DNA of 20,124 bases from a virus: positions 1 to 20,124 of IMG/VR virus record IMGVR_UViG_3300027833_000269; one strand, given 5' to 3'. Positions within the stretch are counted from its first letter, which is position 1, and each line of letters begins with the position of its first letter. A model generated the notes under the pieces. The model was not told the DNA's origin. It made no database searches and saw nothing but the letters and a program-made list of their open reading frames with translations. The translations under genes were made by a program, and so were the position numbers. Positions 1,893 to 19,736 of this stretch are shown one piece after another.

Positions 1893-4472
1893 TTAGATGC
1901 TTACTGCTTCCGTGGAAAATTTAACCCAACCAGTTCCCGCTTGGAATCCCTGAAATTCATTATGGTCACTGTTGTAAATAATCATTCCGTTTTGAGCAAC
2001 AGGTGTGCTTGATGAAGTGGGTCTCGTTACATCCGAATAGTGCCCTAATCTAATAGATTCATTAAAGAAAGATCTACCAATAACTCTTAACGCTTCATCT
2101 ATTTCATCAGTAGAATTGTTTTTACCCGCCACAATTTCCAATGTAACAGGATTGGTAGAACTGGGGTTTTTGTTAATTCCAATTCTTGAACCAGTATATC
2201 CATTAAACTTCTGGATTACCATTAAGTTAGTAGGATTAGCATCGAAATCCCTAAACCTATGCTCCATTGAATCATATACAATTGGTTGAGTAGTTGAACC
2301 CGTCGACCCTATAGCCTGTATTTCTTTAACGTGTAATTTGTTATTTGCTGTAACATCTTTAGCTATAACATTACCACCAGTTCCATCTCCACTTGTATCG
2401 CTTACTGTTATGTCTCCATTGTTAACTATTACGTTATTCGCGCACGTAGTTGTTCCATCAATTGTAAGATCATCATCTATTTGTAAATCTCCATCAACTT
2501 TAGCGTTAACCATTGTCACCAATGGACTAGCAGTGCTGGCATTTACATTAAAGACGGTTGTACTGGCGGCATCTACAGTTTCAACTTTTATAGCATTTGG
2601 ATTGATGCTTCCTAGGGTAAGTTTAGCATTGTTTTCACCAAATCCTAAAAAGGTAGTAGCACCCTGAAGCGAATACCCATCACTAATATACGCATTTCCA
2701 TTTATATCTAGCACGCCACTTGGATTTGTAATGCCCCCTCCTATGCCAACAGGTCCCTCCAATAAAGAATTACCTGTAACCTTTGCATTCTTTATGGTTA
2801 CCAATTTATTAGTACTGGGGTCTACTTCAAGAATTGTATCGTAAAAACTACCAGCATAATTAGCGTTTACCTTGAAAGCACCATCAACTCTAGTTGTTCC
2901 AACTACACGAAGCTTTGTTGTGCTATCTGCAGTTCCACCCACTCCAAGTCTTGTGGTTGGGTTAAAAATTAGTTCCTCCTTATCAATGAAATTAAAAATC
3001 TCAGTTCCATCATTGGAGTGTAGCGTATGATCTTGTAAATTCAGGACTTCGTGGACATCGTGATACAATGTATCTGCTTTAACAATTCCAGTAAATGTGG
3101 GTGCATTTCTTGATGCTTTACCAGCTATATTAGTGTTGGCAGTTGCAATGTTTGCTACGTTCATCGCAACAGAGTAAGCAGTCGTTGATATGTTCGTTGC
3201 GTTAGTTGTTATATTAGCAGTGTTAGCTAGGATTGCGCTAGAGTTAGTAGATGCGTTTGCAGTATTGGTAGCAATGTTGCCAGTATTAGTAGCTATATTA
3301 GAAGTATTAGCGGCAATGGCACTTGTATTTGTAGCTATGTCGGCTTCATTCGCACCAATATCATTAGTGTTGCTTAATATATCAGTAGAATTGCCTGCTA
3401 TATCATCAGCGTTAGATGATATATTAGCGGTGTTGGCAGTGATAGCAGTTGCGTTTGAATTAACTGCTGTAGCTAAGCTAGCTATGCCAGCAATGTTAGT
3501 AGTTATATTAGCAGTGTTCGTTGTGATTGAACTCGATAAAGTTGAAACGGAAGTTTCGTTAACTGCAACCTTAGCTAGTGTTGCTTGAGTTGCTGAATCA
3601 AGCGCAACTGTAATGCTTCCAGATGTTGTTACTGGACCCCCGCTGGGAGTAATTCCCGTTCCGCCCGTTATATTGACCGAAGAGACTGTTCCCTGAGAAC
3701 TTGTTCCAGTATTCACCCAAGAAGTTGTGTCCGAATCCCACAACCAAAAAGTGTCAGTCGCCCCAACAATAGCAAACCATCCATTTTGACCAGTAGAATA
3801 GGCTGTGGTCAATGCTGATTCTGTTGCAAAAAATCCTTTATTATTTGGTGAAGTTACCGCATCAACATAGGCAGTTGTAGCAATTTTTGTAGAATCATCA
3901 TTTGCATTTTGAGTTGGTGCAGTTGGATTGCCAGTCAATGCAGGCGATGCAAGATCTGCTTTTATGTTATACAAATCACTTATATTAGACTCGTTCTCTA
4001 TTGACAATTCACCGTTGTTACCTATCGCACTTACTTGGGCTGGGGTAATACCTACCTTTAATGTATTAGCGGCAATGGCACTTGTTTGTCCAGAAGTGAT
4101 TCCAGTCTTTAATGTATTGGCGGCAATCGCATTTACTTGTGCGGTTGTAATTCCAGTCTTTAATGTATTGGCGGCAATGGCACTTGCTTGTGCTGAAGTA
4201 ATTCCATCCTTGAGCGTATTAGCGGCAATCGCATCTGCTTGTGCTGGAGTAATTCCAACTCTTCCAGTGTTAGTTACAATGGCACTTGCTTGCTCGGGAG
4301 TAATTCCAACCTTAGCTGTATTAATAGCTATGTCTGCTGTATTAGTAGCTATGTCGGCTTTGTTAATGGCTACTTGACCACTATTGTTTAAACCCAAAAA
4401 TGAAGCCGCCTCTTCCTTGGTGGATTTTTTTAGAAATGTATCAATGTCCGAGGATACTTTAATATTTGACAT
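1893..4472 (-). CDS. Long phage fibre protein with repeat shaft, 859 residues
   Basis: This is a probable receptor-binding or appendage fibre. Residues 1-40 form a short attachment region. Residues 50-151 hold six 17-residue repeats of the type ANTLKTGITSAQASAIA. A globular part with aromatic residues (FWLWDSDTTSWVNTG) follows, then Gly/Thr/Ser-rich strand repeats, then a long run of seven-residue repeats IxxNTxx (roughly residues 305-450), then repeated VDG/VNGDI-type strand-turn segments typical of a beta shaft. The C-terminus has GMIIYNSDHNEFQGFQ then GW, a motif I associate with fibre ends. No S74 peptidase chaperone motif was seen. The gene follows the small surface-type genes and precedes the holin candidates. 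I cannot tell tail fibre from head fibre. Confidence 0.85.
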   Translation of the reverse strand: MSNIKVSSDIDTFLKKSTKEEAASFLGLNNSGQVAINKADIATNTADIAINTAKVGITPEQASAIVTNTGRVGITPAQADAIAANTLKDGITSAQASAIAANTLKTGITTAQVNAIAANTLKTGITSGQTSAIAANTLKVGITPAQVSAIGNNGELSIENESNISDLYNIKADLASPALTGNPTAPTQNANDDSTKIATTAYVDAVTSPNNKGFFATESALTTAYSTGQNGWFAIVGATDTFWLWDSDTTSWVNTGTSSQGTVSSVNITGGTGITPSGGPVTTSGSITVALDSATQATLAKVAVNETSVSTLSSSITTNTANITTNIAGIASLATAVNSNATAITANTANISSNADDIAGNSTDILSNTNDIGANEADIATNTSAIAANTSNIATNTGNIATNTANASTNSSAILANTANITTNATNISTTAYSVAMNVANIATANTNIAGKASRNAPTFTGIVKADTLYHDVHEVLNLQDHTLHSNDGTEIFNFIDKEELIFNPTTRLGVGGTADSTTKLRVVGTTRVDGAFKVNANYAGSFYDTILEVDPSTNKLVTIKNAKVTGNSLLEGPVGIGGGITNPSGVLDINGNAYISDGYSLQGATTFLGFGENNAKLTLGSINPNAIKVETVDAASTTVFNVNASTASPLVTMVNAKVDGDLQIDDDLTIDGTTTCANNVIVNNGDITVSDTSGDGTGGNVIAKDVTANNKLHVKEIQAIGSTGSTTQPIVYDSMEHRFRDFDANPTNLMVIQKFNGYTGSRIGINKNPSSTNPVTLEIVAGKNNSTDEIDEALRVIGRSFFNESIRLGHYSDVTRPTSSSTPVAQNGMIIYNSDHNEFQGFQAGTGWVKFSTEAVSI
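3130..3580 (-). repeat. Heptad-coding repeats of the fibre coiled coil (IxxNTxx)
   Basis: The DNA repeatedly encodes heptads with Ile or Val at one core position and Asn, usually followed by Thr, at the other (for example IAANTSNIATNTGNIATNTA). The period is 21 bases, with diverged copies. Boundaries are approximate. The same strand read backwards gives a long hydrophobic antisense ORF that is only a shadow of this repeat. Confidence 0.75.
4020..4325 (-). repeat. Six tandem 51-base repeats coding 17-residue fibre units
   Basis: Residues 50-151 of the fibre fall into six consecutive 17-residue units: INTAKVGITPEQASAIV, TNTGRVGITPAQADAIA, ANTLKDGITSAQASAIA, ANTLKTGITTAQVNAIA, ANTLKTGITSGQTSAIA and ANTLKVGITPAQVSAIG. 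Units 3-6 are the most alike and units 1-2 are diverged. They remain in frame, so copy number can change without breaking the gene. Confidence 0.85.
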
Positions 4473-8111: not shown

Positions 8112-8140
8112 ATTATAACACTTGGATATTATATGTTAAA
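8112..8140 (-). promoter_or_regulatory. Promoter before scaffold and capsid genes
   Basis: Minus strand GTGTTATAAT (8112-8121) contains TGTTATAAT, an extended -10 box. A weak -35, TTTAAC (8135-8140), sits exactly 17 bases away. The same GTGTTATAAT occurs before the portal gene and, as GTGTTACAAT, before the small terminase gene. Confidence 0.6.
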
Positions 8141-9302
8141 AATTATATCCGTATTTTTTTGCTATTTTTTTCCAACTGTCAGGAGTAGTCCTTTGGTTGG
8201 GGCTTTCAACCCTTGGTCTTGGTGTAGGTTTAGGTGTTGGTGTTGAAACTGGTGGAGTAACTCGTGCGGATGGTTTAGCTGGTGTAACCTTTTGCATAGA
8301 ATCCACCGATTGCTGTAGTTTATTTAATTCCCTTCGGACATTTTTACTATCTCCTTTGCCGACATAATAAGCCGCGCCCCCTACAATGGCAGGAGTGATT
8401 GATCCTTTTATTCCTTTGCCTGCAAGCCTAGCGGAACCTGTAACTGCTCCCTTGACCGCTTTTTTGGCGTTTCTACCTAGGTCTTTTCGGAATTGTTTTC
8501 TGCCAACGTCATAAGCTTCTTTGGCTTCTCTTCCGCCTCGAGGACCTTGAACTGGACCTTGTGGCTTACCCCTTGCATTAATGGCGGATTGTTCAGCACG
8601 AGTTGGAGGACCTTGAACTGGGCGTTGAGTCACGTTTGCATTTCTTGCTTTGTTTTTATAGAAATCTTGAGCTCCCTTTAGGTCACCCTTTTTTCCACCC
8701 ATAACAATTACATTGCCTTTGCTGTCTTTTCCGTATGCACCACCAGAAACGCCCTTGGGCTTAGTTGGTTTCTTAGCGGGTGTTTTAACGGGAGCCTTCT
8801 TAGCGGGTGTTTTAACGGGAGCCTTCTTAGCTACCTTCTTGACAGGTGTCTTAGCAGGAGCCTTTTTAACTGCCTTCTTTACGGGAACTTTTTTTACTGC
8901 TTTTTTTACTGGTGTCTTAACCGCTTTTTTGGCGGGAGTCTTTACTGGCTTTGCTCCAGCTTTAGAAATTTTAGTAATCTTTACATTGGGTGGCAAGACC
9001 CGATCATTCTTAAAACCCGCCTTAGATGCTTCCTTGGGTGTTTGTTTAACCGTGGATACTTTTTGTAAAGGGGGCTTGGGGCTAGTTGCAAGCTTGGGTG
9101 GGGGCGTTGCTTTTTTCTTAGCTAATGCGTTTAGCTCAGCTTTATTGTTAGCCTTATTAATGTCATTTTGCTTCTTTGTATTATAAGTCCTTTTGGGAGT
9201 AGTAGGCTTAGGAGCCCCAGTAGGCTTAACATTTTTAGTGTTTTTACCAGCTTTAATAACTCCGTCTAGTATTGTTTTAACTGCTTTTTTTCTTACACTC
9301 AT
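8136..9302 (-). CDS. Histone-H1-like lysine/alanine/proline-rich protein, 388 residues
   Basis: Residues 1-115 are basic and proline-rich. Residues 117-183 are a nearly pure series of KTPAKKAVK, KTPVKK and KAPVKTPAK units like the tails of histone H1 and bacterial H1-like proteins. Next comes a Gly/Lys segment (GAYGKDSKGNVIVMGGKKGD), two PVQGP units (228-253), a short apolar stretch GSITPAIVGGAAYYVG (300-315) that could touch a membrane or be buried, a short helix (321-335), a Pro/Thr hinge, and the ending DSWKKIAKKYGYNF. It lies between portal and scaffold genes, so a virion component that binds packaged DNA is a reasonable guess; a tether or ejection protein is another. The function is not established. 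Confidence 0.8.
   Translation of the reverse strand: MSVRKKAVKTILDGVIKAGKNTKNVKPTGAPKPTTPKRTYNTKKQNDINKANNKAELNALAKKKATPPPKLATSPKPPLQKVSTVKQTPKEASKAGFKNDRVLPPNVKITKISKAGAKPVKTPAKKAVKTPVKKAVKKVPVKKAVKKAPAKTPVKKVAKKAPVKTPAKKAPVKTPAKKPTKPKGVSGGAYGKDSKGNVIVMGGKKGDLKGAQDFYKNKARNANVTQRPVQGPPTRAEQSAINARGKPQGPVQGPRGGREAKEAYDVGRKQFRKDLGRNAKKAVKGAVTGSARLAGKGIKGSITPAIVGGAAYYVGKGDSKNVRRELNKLQQSVDSMQKVTPAKPSARVTPPVSTPTPKPTPRPRVESPNQRTTPDSWKKIAKKYGYNF
8770..8823 (-). repeat. Perfect 27-base tandem duplication inside the H1-like gene
   Basis: Two identical 27-base copies (8770-8796 and 8797-8823) each code nine residues of the KAPVKTPAK type. Identity at the DNA level, including silent sites, points to a recent slippage or unequal-crossover event, while neighbouring units are diverged. 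Confidence 0.85.
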
Positions 9303-16016: not shown

Positions 16017-17273
16017 ATGAAAAAACCAAACAACGACATACTCAAGGATTACATCAAATCATTCGCTGACTACGCAGAAAGACTGGGCATTACTGGATCC
16101 GATGTGGGCAATGCGGGGCGTGCCAAGCTCGACGATTGGGTAGCTAAGCTTGGAGGAAATCCCGAGCACCTAATCAGCGATTACCGCAACGGTGAGTGGG
16201 GCAAGGAGCTTGTGCAACCCGTTGAAGCCAAGCCAGTTGAGCCCGTTCAACCAATCGAGCCCGCCAAGATCGAGGATCACGTGGCGATCAATCCATTTCC
16301 AACAGACGCAGACAAGCTCGGTCAAGCTATGATCGATGCGATGGGCGTTGTGGGTGGCAGGGATGAGAAGCTACGTGAGGATGTGACCAAGATTGCGGAA
16401 ATAATGAGTCAGCAAGAGGATGTGCTCTTGAGCTTTTCCGACAACTTCGACAAGGTTTGGAAGGAGCTAAGGCAGGGCAAAGTAGCTAACCTGCACATCA
16501 AGATCGGTGACAAGCCAGTCATTGACGCAGGCAAGGTGCATAAACGCTTCGGTGATCTGTTAGCTGTAGCTACCTGCCGTTGCCATGCTTTCCTAACTGG
16601 GGGAGCGGGTTCCTTCAAGACTAGCTCCGCAGAGAAGGTTGCGGAAGTGCTTGAGCTAGAGTGCTCTAGCATATCTATCTCCTCGCAGACTACCGAGACC
16701 AAGCTACTTGGCTACATGAATGCCGAAGGCAGGTATGTAACTACCGAGTTCAGAAAGCGTTACGAAACTGGTGGCGTGTTCATCTTGGACGAAGTTGACA
16801 ATGGCAACCCCAACACGCTAGCGGTTCTCAACTCTGCCCTAGCTAACGGCAACTGTGCCTTTGCTGATGGCATGGTGACCAAGCATGAGGATTTCATCTT
16901 GATCGCTACAGCCAACACCTTCGGTAGCGGAGCCAATGCTCAGTATGTGGGACGCAATGCACTCGACCAAGCTACGCTTGACCGCTTCTGCTTCATCGAA
17001 TGGGATTACGACAATGATCTCGAGTATCACATCGCAAGCAACGGTGCATGGTGCAGAGATGTCCAAGCTATCCGCAAGGCTGTCGATCAGCTAAAGCTCA
17101 AAGCTGTAGTCAGCCCACGTGCTACCTTCGAGGGTGCTAAGCTACTCGAGGCAGGTATGAGCTACGAGGACGTGCTCTTCGCCAAGGTATGGAAGGGCTT
17201 AGCTAAGGACGCAGTTGACAAGGTGCTCGAGAAGGTGGCTAGCAACGGTCACATCCTCAGCAATCTCAAATAA
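16017..17273 (+). CDS. AAA+ ATPase of MoxR/CobS type with atypical Walker A, 418 residues
   Basis: The N-terminal helical region (1-65) is joined by a Pro/Glu linker (VQPVEAKPVEPVQPIEP, 67-83) to a further helical segment, then the AAA+ core. Walker A reads GGAGSFKT (195-202), with Phe200 where the invariant Gly normally precedes Lys. Walker B is GGVFILDEVD (252-261), sensor 1 is ATANT (297-301), a probable arginine finger is LDRF (Arg323), and a sensor-2-like SPRAT is at 367-371. Such ATPases remodel or load partner proteins; the next gene is the likely partner. The leader is A/C-rich with CATATAAAATACA and no Shine-Dalgarno. It looks more G+C-rich than the structural genes. Confidence 0.85.
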   Translation: MKKPNNDILKDYIKSFADYAERLGITGSDVGNAGRAKLDDWVAKLGGNPEHLISDYRNGEWGKELVQPVEAKPVEPVQPIEPAKIEDHVAINPFPTDADKLGQAMIDAMGVVGGRDEKLREDVTKIAEIMSQQEDVLLSFSDNFDKVWKELRQGKVANLHIKIGDKPVIDAGKVHKRFGDLLAVATCRCHAFLTGGAGSFKTSSAEKVAEVLELECSSISISSQTTETKLLGYMNAEGRYVTTEFRKRYETGGVFILDEVDNGNPNTLAVLNSALANGNCAFADGMVTKHEDFILIATANTFGSGANAQYVGRNALDQATLDRFCFIEWDYDNDLEYHIASNGAWCRDVQAIRKAVDQLKLKAVVSPRATFEGAKLLEAGMSYEDVLFAKVWKGLAKDAVDKVLEKVASNGHILSNLK

Positions 17274-17301
17274 TTATAACCCAATAGAAAGGATACACAC
17301 A

Positions 17302-18132
17302 ATGAACCTAGTAAATACATACGATTCAGTCGGAGATTACGTAGCTAAGGGCGAGACCCTAGCTAAGAGCAAGCGAGGATCATCCTCAAGCAGGGGTGAC
17401 TCTGCTTGGTATGGCACAGCTAACATGGATGAGGCAGTCAAGCTAGTGCGTGGTGGGTGGGATAAGCGACCCAACCTTAGCAAGCTAAGCAAGGACATCG
17501 ATAGCCAGACATCAGCTAACATCGACAAGATGGCGATGGAGCATCAAGTTCAAGGTGCTTACGTGGATGTGGGTGCTTACCTTGAGGGTGTGCCCGAGTG
17601 CATGGTTGAGTTCATCGATCAGCCCGAGCCCAAGGTTGTGACCATCGCGTTCAACATCAGCACCTTCGCGTCAATGCCAGAAAAAGCCTTCGCCAACCGA
17701 GGTGCGGTTACCTTAGCTATCTGCAATAAGCTACAGCTAGCAGGCTACTCGGTAGAGATCAAAGCCTACTGCACCGTCAAAGCTACTAAGCACGGCGAGA
17801 AGCGGGGCAGGCACACGACGGTCTTCACCGTCAAGGACAGCGGGCAGATGCTCGACGAAGACTCCCTTGCCTTCTGGTGCTGTCATCCAAGTGCCCTTCG
17901 CAGGCTACACTTCTTGCACAACGAAAGCCTCTCGGCTGAAGCGTGTGAGAAGTTCGGATACAACGCAGGGTGCGGTGGCTACGGCAAGCCATGCAAGCTA
18001 AGCGAACATCCCAAGGGTGAGAAGCAAGTCGACGCTGATGTCAACGTGGACTTCCAAGAGGCTAACTTCTCCAAGGCAGTCAACGAATACAACAAGCTCA
18101 TAGCTAAGCTAAACAAAGGGTTAGCTAGCTAG
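17302..18132 (+). CDS. DUF7192-like partner of the AAA+ ATPase, 276 residues
   Basis: I chose ATG at 17302, behind AGAAAGGA; a start at 17215 would overlap the ATPase gene. The N-terminal part has SAWYGTANMDEAVKLVRGGW (34-53), then GAYVDVGAYLEGVPECMVEF (85-104), then a Rossmann-like stretch VVTIAFNIS (112-120) with RGAVTLAICNKLQLAGYSVE (133-152), then FWCCHPSALRRLHFLHNE (191-208). This order matches my memory of the phage DUF7192 family. The strand-Asn-x-Ser-helix segment resembles a degenerate von Willebrand A fold, which would parallel MoxR/CobT pairs, but the metal-site DxSxS is absent. The tail (212-276) has four Cys/Gly turns. The function is unknown. Confidence 0.75.
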   Translation: MNLVNTYDSVGDYVAKGETLAKSKRGSSSSRGDSAWYGTANMDEAVKLVRGGWDKRPNLSKLSKDIDSQTSANIDKMAMEHQVQGAYVDVGAYLEGVPECMVEFIDQPEPKVVTIAFNISTFASMPEKAFANRGAVTLAICNKLQLAGYSVEIKAYCTVKATKHGEKRGRHTTVFTVKDSGQMLDEDSLAFWCCHPSALRRLHFLHNESLSAEACEKFGYNAGCGGYGKPCKLSEHPKGEKQVDADVNVDFQEANFSKAVNEYNKLIAKLNKGLAS

Positions 18133-18957: not shown

Positions 18958-19302
18958 ATGAAGGCAATACTAATAAATTCAGAGAAATATGAAGTCACGG
19001 AAGTCGACCTTGAAGAGGACGAGTTTGGCGAGGTAAAGATAGAGGACATATCTAAGCAGTTGAAGTGCAACTACTTCGACGTAGCTAGGATAGGTAACGG
19101 GGATGCAATCTTCGTGGATGACGAAGGTTTACTTCGCGAAGGGGTGCAACCCGCCTTTGAGCACAAGGGGTATCACTCCCTGCTCGTGGGCAACGGGGTA
19201 GTGCTTGGTAGTGGATCGATGGGCGAGAGTCTACCGCCCAAGTCAACCATCGAAGAGATTCGTGAAGCTATCCAATTCGGAGTTGTGGGGATAGAAAACT
19301 AA
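18958..19302 (+). CDS. DUF3846-like protein, 114 residues
   Basis: The product begins MKAILINSEKYEVTEVDLEE and carries FDVARIGNGDAIFVDDEGLL, then a short run to HKGYHSLLVGNGVVLGSGS. The order 'strand, acidic stretch, DEEGLL, Gly-rich VVLGSG' matches my recall of DUF3846, a family of small phage and plasmid proteins of unknown function. The leader is CACATATAATACA without Shine-Dalgarno; a good promoter lies 44 bases upstream. The stop overlaps the next start as TAATG, so it is coupled to the hydrolase gene. Confidence 0.75.
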   Translation: MKAILINSEKYEVTEVDLEEDEFGEVKIEDISKQLKCNYFDVARIGNGDAIFVDDEGLLREGVQPAFEHKGYHSLLVGNGVVLGSGSMGESLPPKSTIEEIREAIQFGVVGIEN

Positions 19303-19736
19303 TGGATCACTACATTAAAATCCTAATCGCCTCGACTATCGTATTGTTCTGCGGCTACAACACTAGCTACGCTCAATCCCAACGGGAGATCGTCACGGCT
19401 ACTCTTATATTAGAGGCAGGTGGCGAATACTCCTTGGGTGCAATGGAGGCAGTTCATGAGGTTATAATAACTCGAGCCCACAAGCGAGGGCTAAGCCCTA
19501 GCCAAGTTTGCCTACAGCCCCGTCAGTTTGCCTGTTGGAGCGATGTAGAGTTAGCTAGCCAAGTCATCAAAGCCAAGCGTCACCGTAGGTGGCGTGAGGC
19601 TTTTGCCATTACTCACCTACCGCTAACTAGCTACGCTAGGGGTGCGGATCATTACCATGCCGACTACTGCGATCCCTACTGGAATAAATCCATGCGGGTG
19701 GTAGCTAGGGTAGGCAGACATATATTCTATAAATAA
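19302..19736 (+). CDS. Exported SleB/CwlJ-type cell-wall hydrolase (endolysin), 144 residues
   Basis: The enzyme cleaves peptidoglycan. Residues 1-24 form a Sec-type signal peptide (Lys6, apolar ILIASTIVLFCGY, cleavage expected after TSYA). The rest is a minimal Hydrolase_2 domain: REIVTATLILEAGGEYSLGA with the catalytic-type Glu38, HEVIITRAHKRGLSPSQV, LQPRQFACWS, AFAITH, then GADHYHADYCDPYW and GRHIFYK. These motifs match phage endolysins of the SleB family, where the domain alone is about 110-130 residues. Export would make lysis partly independent of a holin pore. It overlaps the previous gene by one base. Confidence 0.88.
   Translation: MDHYIKILIASTIVLFCGYNTSYAQSQREIVTATLILEAGGEYSLGAMEAVHEVIITRAHKRGLSPSQVCLQPRQFACWSDVELASQVIKAKRHRRWREAFAITHLPLTSYARGADHYHADYCDPYWNKSMRVVARVGRHIFYK

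Follow-up and report, generated by a model that had tools for sequence, protein, structure and literature searches.

The window, by which is meant the whole stretch of DNA analyzed, is a complete IMG/VR virus record of 20,124 bases, possibly a fragment. Packaging and structural genes occupy its minus strand, and the plus-strand, nonstructural arm opens with two genes that are divergent and separate from the structural genes and whose joint purpose is the question considered here. The first (positions 16017 to 17273, plus strand) encodes a 418-amino-acid AAA+ ATPase and is followed, after a gap of 28 nt, by a gene for a 276-amino-acid DUF7192 protein (positions 17302 to 18132, plus strand; phrog_1909; PF23822, E value 2.9e-40). 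A preliminary description made from the sequence alone had placed both reading frames at these same coordinates. Three other proteins of the window can be mentioned: an 859-amino-acid fiber-like protein with repeated NTxxIxxNT units (positions 1893 to 4472, minus strand), a structural-arm protein with Lys/Pro/Ala-rich repeats resembling histone H1 tails (positions 8136 to 9302, minus strand) that is also carried by the related contig L017, and, in the nonstructural arm, a cell wall hydrolase (positions 19302 to 19736, plus strand; Hydrolase_2, 4.7e-11) that is a probable endolysin.

The ATPase matched the AAA_5 domain (3.7e-15) and phrog_249 (1.2e-52), whose annotation reads "porphyrin biosynthesis." Sequence-profile matches were obtained to Midasin (1.9e-43), CobS (1.4e-20), and CbbQ (3.2e-15). 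Among solved folds, those nearest to a model of the L017 ATPase were CbbQ and NorQ (Z 20.9 to 17.9; top match, CbbQ 6l1q at 20.9), with the next family at 16.6. Walker B (VFILDE, D258 and E259; positions 16776 to 16793), sensor 1 (N300) and the Arg finger (R323), which together with the intervening post-sensor-1 loop span positions 16914 to 16985, and sensor 2 (R368; positions 17118 to 17120) were all present. The MoxR-type assignment and the intact Walker B, sensor 1, and Arg finger proposed earlier were thus upheld, with sensor 2 kept as well. By analogy with NorQ, the post-sensor-1 loop could be assigned, as could a helix-2 insert region, LLGYMNAEGRYVTT (positions 16704 to 16745), which forms a strand pair in the L017 model (PMC13036017). 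Because its Walker A sequence, GGAGSFKT, departs from the canonical GxxGxGK[ST], the window ATPase is better described as a divergent relative of the MoxR clade (CbbQ/NorQ type) carrying a variant motif than as a standard member. Its variable N-terminal region (residues 1 to 164; positions 16017 to 16508) comprises a small helical domain followed by a Pro/Glu-rich linker; in the L017 model, residues 6 to 63 were helical with high pLDDT and residues 63 to 96 had low pLDDT. The N termini of the ATPase relatives were unrelated to one another, some carrying paired cysteines and some being SAP-like. The SAP and zinc matches returned by Pfam for these modules all fell below curated cutoffs and are only suggestive.

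Walker A lies at residues 195 to 202 (positions 16599 to 16622), and, as first noted, Phe replaces the Gly that precedes the Lys; the codon for Phe200 is TTC (positions 16614 to 16616). A sequencing or frame error at positions 16615 to 16620 that hid a Gly had been considered beforehand and can be ruled out. Reaching a Gly codon from TTC takes two substitutions, so that neither one miscalled base nor one indel accounts for Phe200, and DNA patterns (one for the GGAGSFKT-type motif and one wider) recovered Phe from three further IMG/VR contigs, L017 (TTC), L098 (TTT), and L147, giving four independent contigs in all. The L017 ATPase shared 73% identity with that of the window, and those of L098 and L147 shared about 49%. 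All four proteins come from related phages with syntenic terminase genes, and they formed one clade (SH-aLRT, 95) in a tree from which both variant P-loop columns were omitted. Phe200 is, on this sequence evidence, a genuine inherited feature of the lineage of the window phage. It is not a family trait, since the site preceding the Walker A Lys was Gly in 156 of 162 homologues, Phe in 4 (window included), and Ser in 2, and it marks one small clade. The same lineage shares a highly iterated palindrome, TAGCTA, found 65 times across positions 1 to 20124 of the window, where 6.7 copies would be expected (0 of 100 shuffles); it is also enriched 8- to 12-fold in L017, L098, and L147.

P-loop NTPases as a rule have a near-essential Gly just ahead of the Walker A Lys, and Phe200 could have killed the ATPase, leaving the ring in this clade as a static scaffold. 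The presence of Gly at the site in 156 of the 162 relatives speaks for such a loss. However, none of the four Phe proteins, even those at about 49% identity, has lost K201, T202, D258, E259, N300, R323, or R368, and the dN/dS ratio of 0.22 between the window and L017 contrasts with the drift expected of a dead site; loss of activity is therefore considered unlikely. With none of Walker B, sensor 1, the Arg finger, and sensor 2 disrupted in any of the four, the sequences argue for a site that is altered yet still used. A second P-loop variant was observed at the neighboring position, where Asn stands in place of the Mg-binding Thr/Ser after the Lys (GKN) in 39 of the 162 homologues (for example, L004 and L201), mainly from Staphylococcus-type phages and from Bacilli, Clostridia, and Eggerthellaceae contigs. 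The Asn proteins require three changes on the same tree. Together, the Phe and Asn variants are natural tests of how far Walker A tolerates change.

No mention of DUF7192 by name was found in the literature searched, and a PDB sequence search gave no convincing match. An AlphaFold2 model of the partner, built from 60 sequences, reached a pLDDT of 89.4 and a pTM of 0.86. Foldseek searches of the PDB with this model returned E values of ≤0.001 only for the NorD VWA chains of NorQ-NorD complexes (E value, 6.5e-5), and viral CobT/VWA proteins came next among structural matches in BFVD. A second aligner, which placed residues 1 to 275 against the NorD C terminus (365 to 638), gave VIA Z values of 7.0 to 7.5 to Rea1-MIDAS and NorD; these values taken alone are weak to modest since unrelated folds can reach that range. 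Because the two programs agree, the protein is the partner of the ATPase, and the ATPase model lies nearest NorQ/CbbQ, the predicted VWA-type fold is persuasive. At the aligned MIDAS position (residues 118 to 122; positions 17653 to 17667), the window protein reads NxSxF, and canonical DxSxS was found in none of the 60 sequences, Asn being the commonest residue at the first MIDAS-equivalent place (29 sequences) and Asp occurring in 13. For this reason DUF7192 is "VWA-like" and not a MIDAS-bearing VWA protein, and the degenerate VWA-type fold without a metal motif suspected beforehand was borne out by the model and the column counts. The model spans the VWA-like domain only, with no N-terminal target domain and linker of the NorD/CbbO type. 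Conservation peaked at residues about 80 to 101 and 195 to 204. The former stretch falls within a segment directly before the first core strand (residues 78 to 104; positions 17533 to 17613), which may be a pore finger, a role suggested by NorD; the latter, HPSALRRLHF (positions 17884 to 17913), contains the invariant R200.

In the window, the phrog_249 and DUF7192 families are adjacent on the same strand. Single-protein scans gave almost nothing, and loci were therefore drawn with a hand-made DNA pattern based solely on the ATPase sequence GRNxLDxATLDRF, so that the counts apply to that part of the family. The pattern identified 119 viral loci. DUF7192 was present in all 100 of those with at least 1.2 kb downstream, lying no more than 400 nt away on the same strand in 93 and nearby in the remaining seven. 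Of the bacterial loci with 1.2 kb of downstream sequence, all 62 likewise carried it, 60 of them in this close, same-strand arrangement. The pairing is conserved, and the possibility that it would not be clearly fails. Named Gordonia, Mycobacterium, Staphylococcus, Listeria, crAss-like, Tunturiibacter, and Rhizobium phages also carry the pair, which is very widespread in phages. Most mycobacteriophage matches had two DUF7192 copies; in Mycobacterium phage Tourach, the second gene (L005:7508-8356) lies about 4 kb from the pair. The pair had been thought phage specific, a view contradicted by its occurrence in Gordonibacter, Bacilli, and Clostridia contigs, in some cases among housekeeping genes. 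In Gordonibacter the surrounding genes include histidine kinase, HAD, Crp, and FabH, and elsewhere PFL, GlmS, and FolD, while further copies, as in Runella, have terminase genes next to them and resemble prophages.

No conserved third gene emerged from the viral loci, none being shared by more than 8 of 92, and recurrences around the bacterial loci were lineage bound. Terminases, helicases, and exonucleases were present among the neighbors with no single association. Terminase genes near some pairs would suit a virion maturation chaperone that helps to assemble phage structural proteins, for which the MoxR/VWA proteins p618 and p892 of the archaeal Acidianus two-tailed virus provide a precedent (PMC7911831). 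Such a role is nevertheless improbable given that the operon is divergent and separate from the structural genes of the window, that no structural neighbor is constant, and that bacterial chromosomal copies sit among housekeeping genes.

Both genes of the pair are under purifying selection and yet change fast. Between the window and L017, the pair had dS values of 0.91 and 1.00 and dN/dS values of 0.22 and 0.32; the corresponding values for terminase and portal were 0.84 and 0.80 (dS) and 0.034 and 0.048 (dN/dS). Recombinational import of the pair was considered as a cause of its divergence from L017 and is unnecessary, as a dS of 0.9 to 1.0 is like that of terminase and portal. The fast change fits a changing target or weaker constraint alike. 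Protein change several-fold faster than in terminase or portal at similar dS, location in the nonstructural arm, and swapped ATPase N-terminal modules, which suggest changing targets, would all be in keeping with a host takeover or counterdefense machine that pulls apart a host complex. Relaxed constraint alone would produce the same rates, though, chromosomal copies exist too, and PADLOC gave no match to known anti-phage defense proteins, so that this purpose is possible but rather doubtful. It concerns what the pair is for and is compatible with the remodeling mechanism preferred below.

In that preferred reading, to which a probability of about 0.68 is given, the two genes encode one compact remodeling machine resembling NorQD and CbbQO, in which a VWA-type plug without a MIDAS metal sits in an ATPase ring. 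The ATPase would form a MoxR-clade AAA+ hexamer, and a single DUF7192 in the mouth of the ring would correspond to the NorD VWA domain minus its N-terminal domain and MIDAS metal site. In NorQD, a finger of the VWA domain enters the pore, the C terminus of NorD holds on to the post-sensor-1 loop, and the VWA domain is rotated in steps driven by ATP (PMC13036017, PMC9976466); the helix-2 insert of NorQ binds the finger (PMC13036017). The DUF7192 segment preceding the first strand is read as equivalent to the NorD finger, such that residues 78 to 104 would lie in the pore and the C terminus on the post-sensor-1 loop. As ATP drives the ring through its steps, the plug could be turned or pulled, and a bound protein or nucleoprotein thereby remodeled. 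NorD MIDAS mutants retain NorQ binding but leave the target unmatured, which assigns the MIDAS to the target and not to ring binding (PMC9976466, PMC13036017). By analogy, the conserved prestrand segment and lost MIDAS of DUF7192 fit this division of roles, and the plug would be coupled to the ring while making no metal-mediated contact with the target. Since the plug has no NorD-like N-terminal domain, the variable N-terminal region of the ATPase, together with the plug surface, probably selects the target; the dissimilarity of N termini among the ATPase relatives likewise indicates that targeting may lie there. Phe200 in the clade of the window would alter nucleotide binding or exchange without having destroyed the site. 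A model of a fused, read-through ATPase-DUF7192 chain from L017 reached a pTM of only 0.50 and yielded no confident docking of the two proteins; with one ATPase copy, it cannot show a hexamer interface.

A broader proposal can be put forward tentatively, that the pair constitutes a distinct, widely moving class of MIDAS-free AAA+/VWA systems with exchangeable ATPase N-terminal target modules (zinc-ribbon-like or SAP-like in some cases, which hints at nucleoprotein targets) and with P-loops altered at two neighboring positions in separate lineages (Phe before the Lys and Asn after it), changing nucleotide handling. The pair represents a pared-down AAA+/VWA system of only two proteins, in which binding to the ring may be separate from MIDAS-dependent target binding, and the large family DUF7192 can now be placed structurally and given what looks like an obligate partner.

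The annotation of phrog_249 and the profile match to CobS structures (1.4e-20) raise a metabolic alternative, in which a CobST-type auxiliary pair, together with host CobN, inserts cobalt and raises cobalamin for phage DNA synthesis. An auxiliary metabolic role in cobalamin synthesis has been proposed for viral cobST pairs (PMC8651126). For the present pair it is highly improbable. The window ATPase had no NCBIfam match, including to the CobS equivalog TIGR01650, which scored 27.5 bits against the relative L201 (cutoff, 558.55). CobN was found in 0 of 36 pair-bearing records, many of them fragments whose hosts could supply CobN, and the class II reductase NrdJ was above cutoff in 0 of 44, many of them partial and with host enzymes that could substitute. 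The partner also has no canonical DxSxS and, at 276 amino acids, compares with about 580 to 730 for viral CobT-type proteins in BFVD. The "porphyrin biosynthesis/CobS" label, common on such phage genes, should not be applied to the phrog_249/DUF7192 module.

Among known systems, NorQ/NorD, which matures nitric oxide reductase, shares with the pair the ATPase fold (Z 17.9 to 20.5), the two-gene arrangement, and the NorD VWA fold, the sole significant PDB match of DUF7192. NorD differs in having 638 amino acids with an N-terminal domain, linker, and MIDAS, whereas DUF7192 consists of a VWA-like domain by itself and has no DxSxS. Of all structures, CbbQ (6l1q) of the Rubisco activase CbbQ/CbbO matched the ATPase best, but the window pair has no Rubisco context, and DUF7192 has neither MIDAS nor target domain. 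Viral CobS/CobT pairs of cyanophages and haloviruses are likewise AAA+ plus VWA gene pairs of tailed viruses, and both proteins are distantly similar; CobT, however, is long and carries a MIDAS, DUF7192 is a separate short family, and a cobalamin link is unsupported here. Acidianus two-tailed virus p618/p892 and RavA/ViaA also combine a MoxR ATPase with a VWA protein but belong to other subfamilies with larger partners. Midasin (Rea1/Mdn1) gave the strongest sequence-profile match of the ATPase domain and has a MIDAS-domain fold similar to DUF7192 (Z 7.0 to 7.5) but is a single giant eukaryotic protein with an intact MIDAS.
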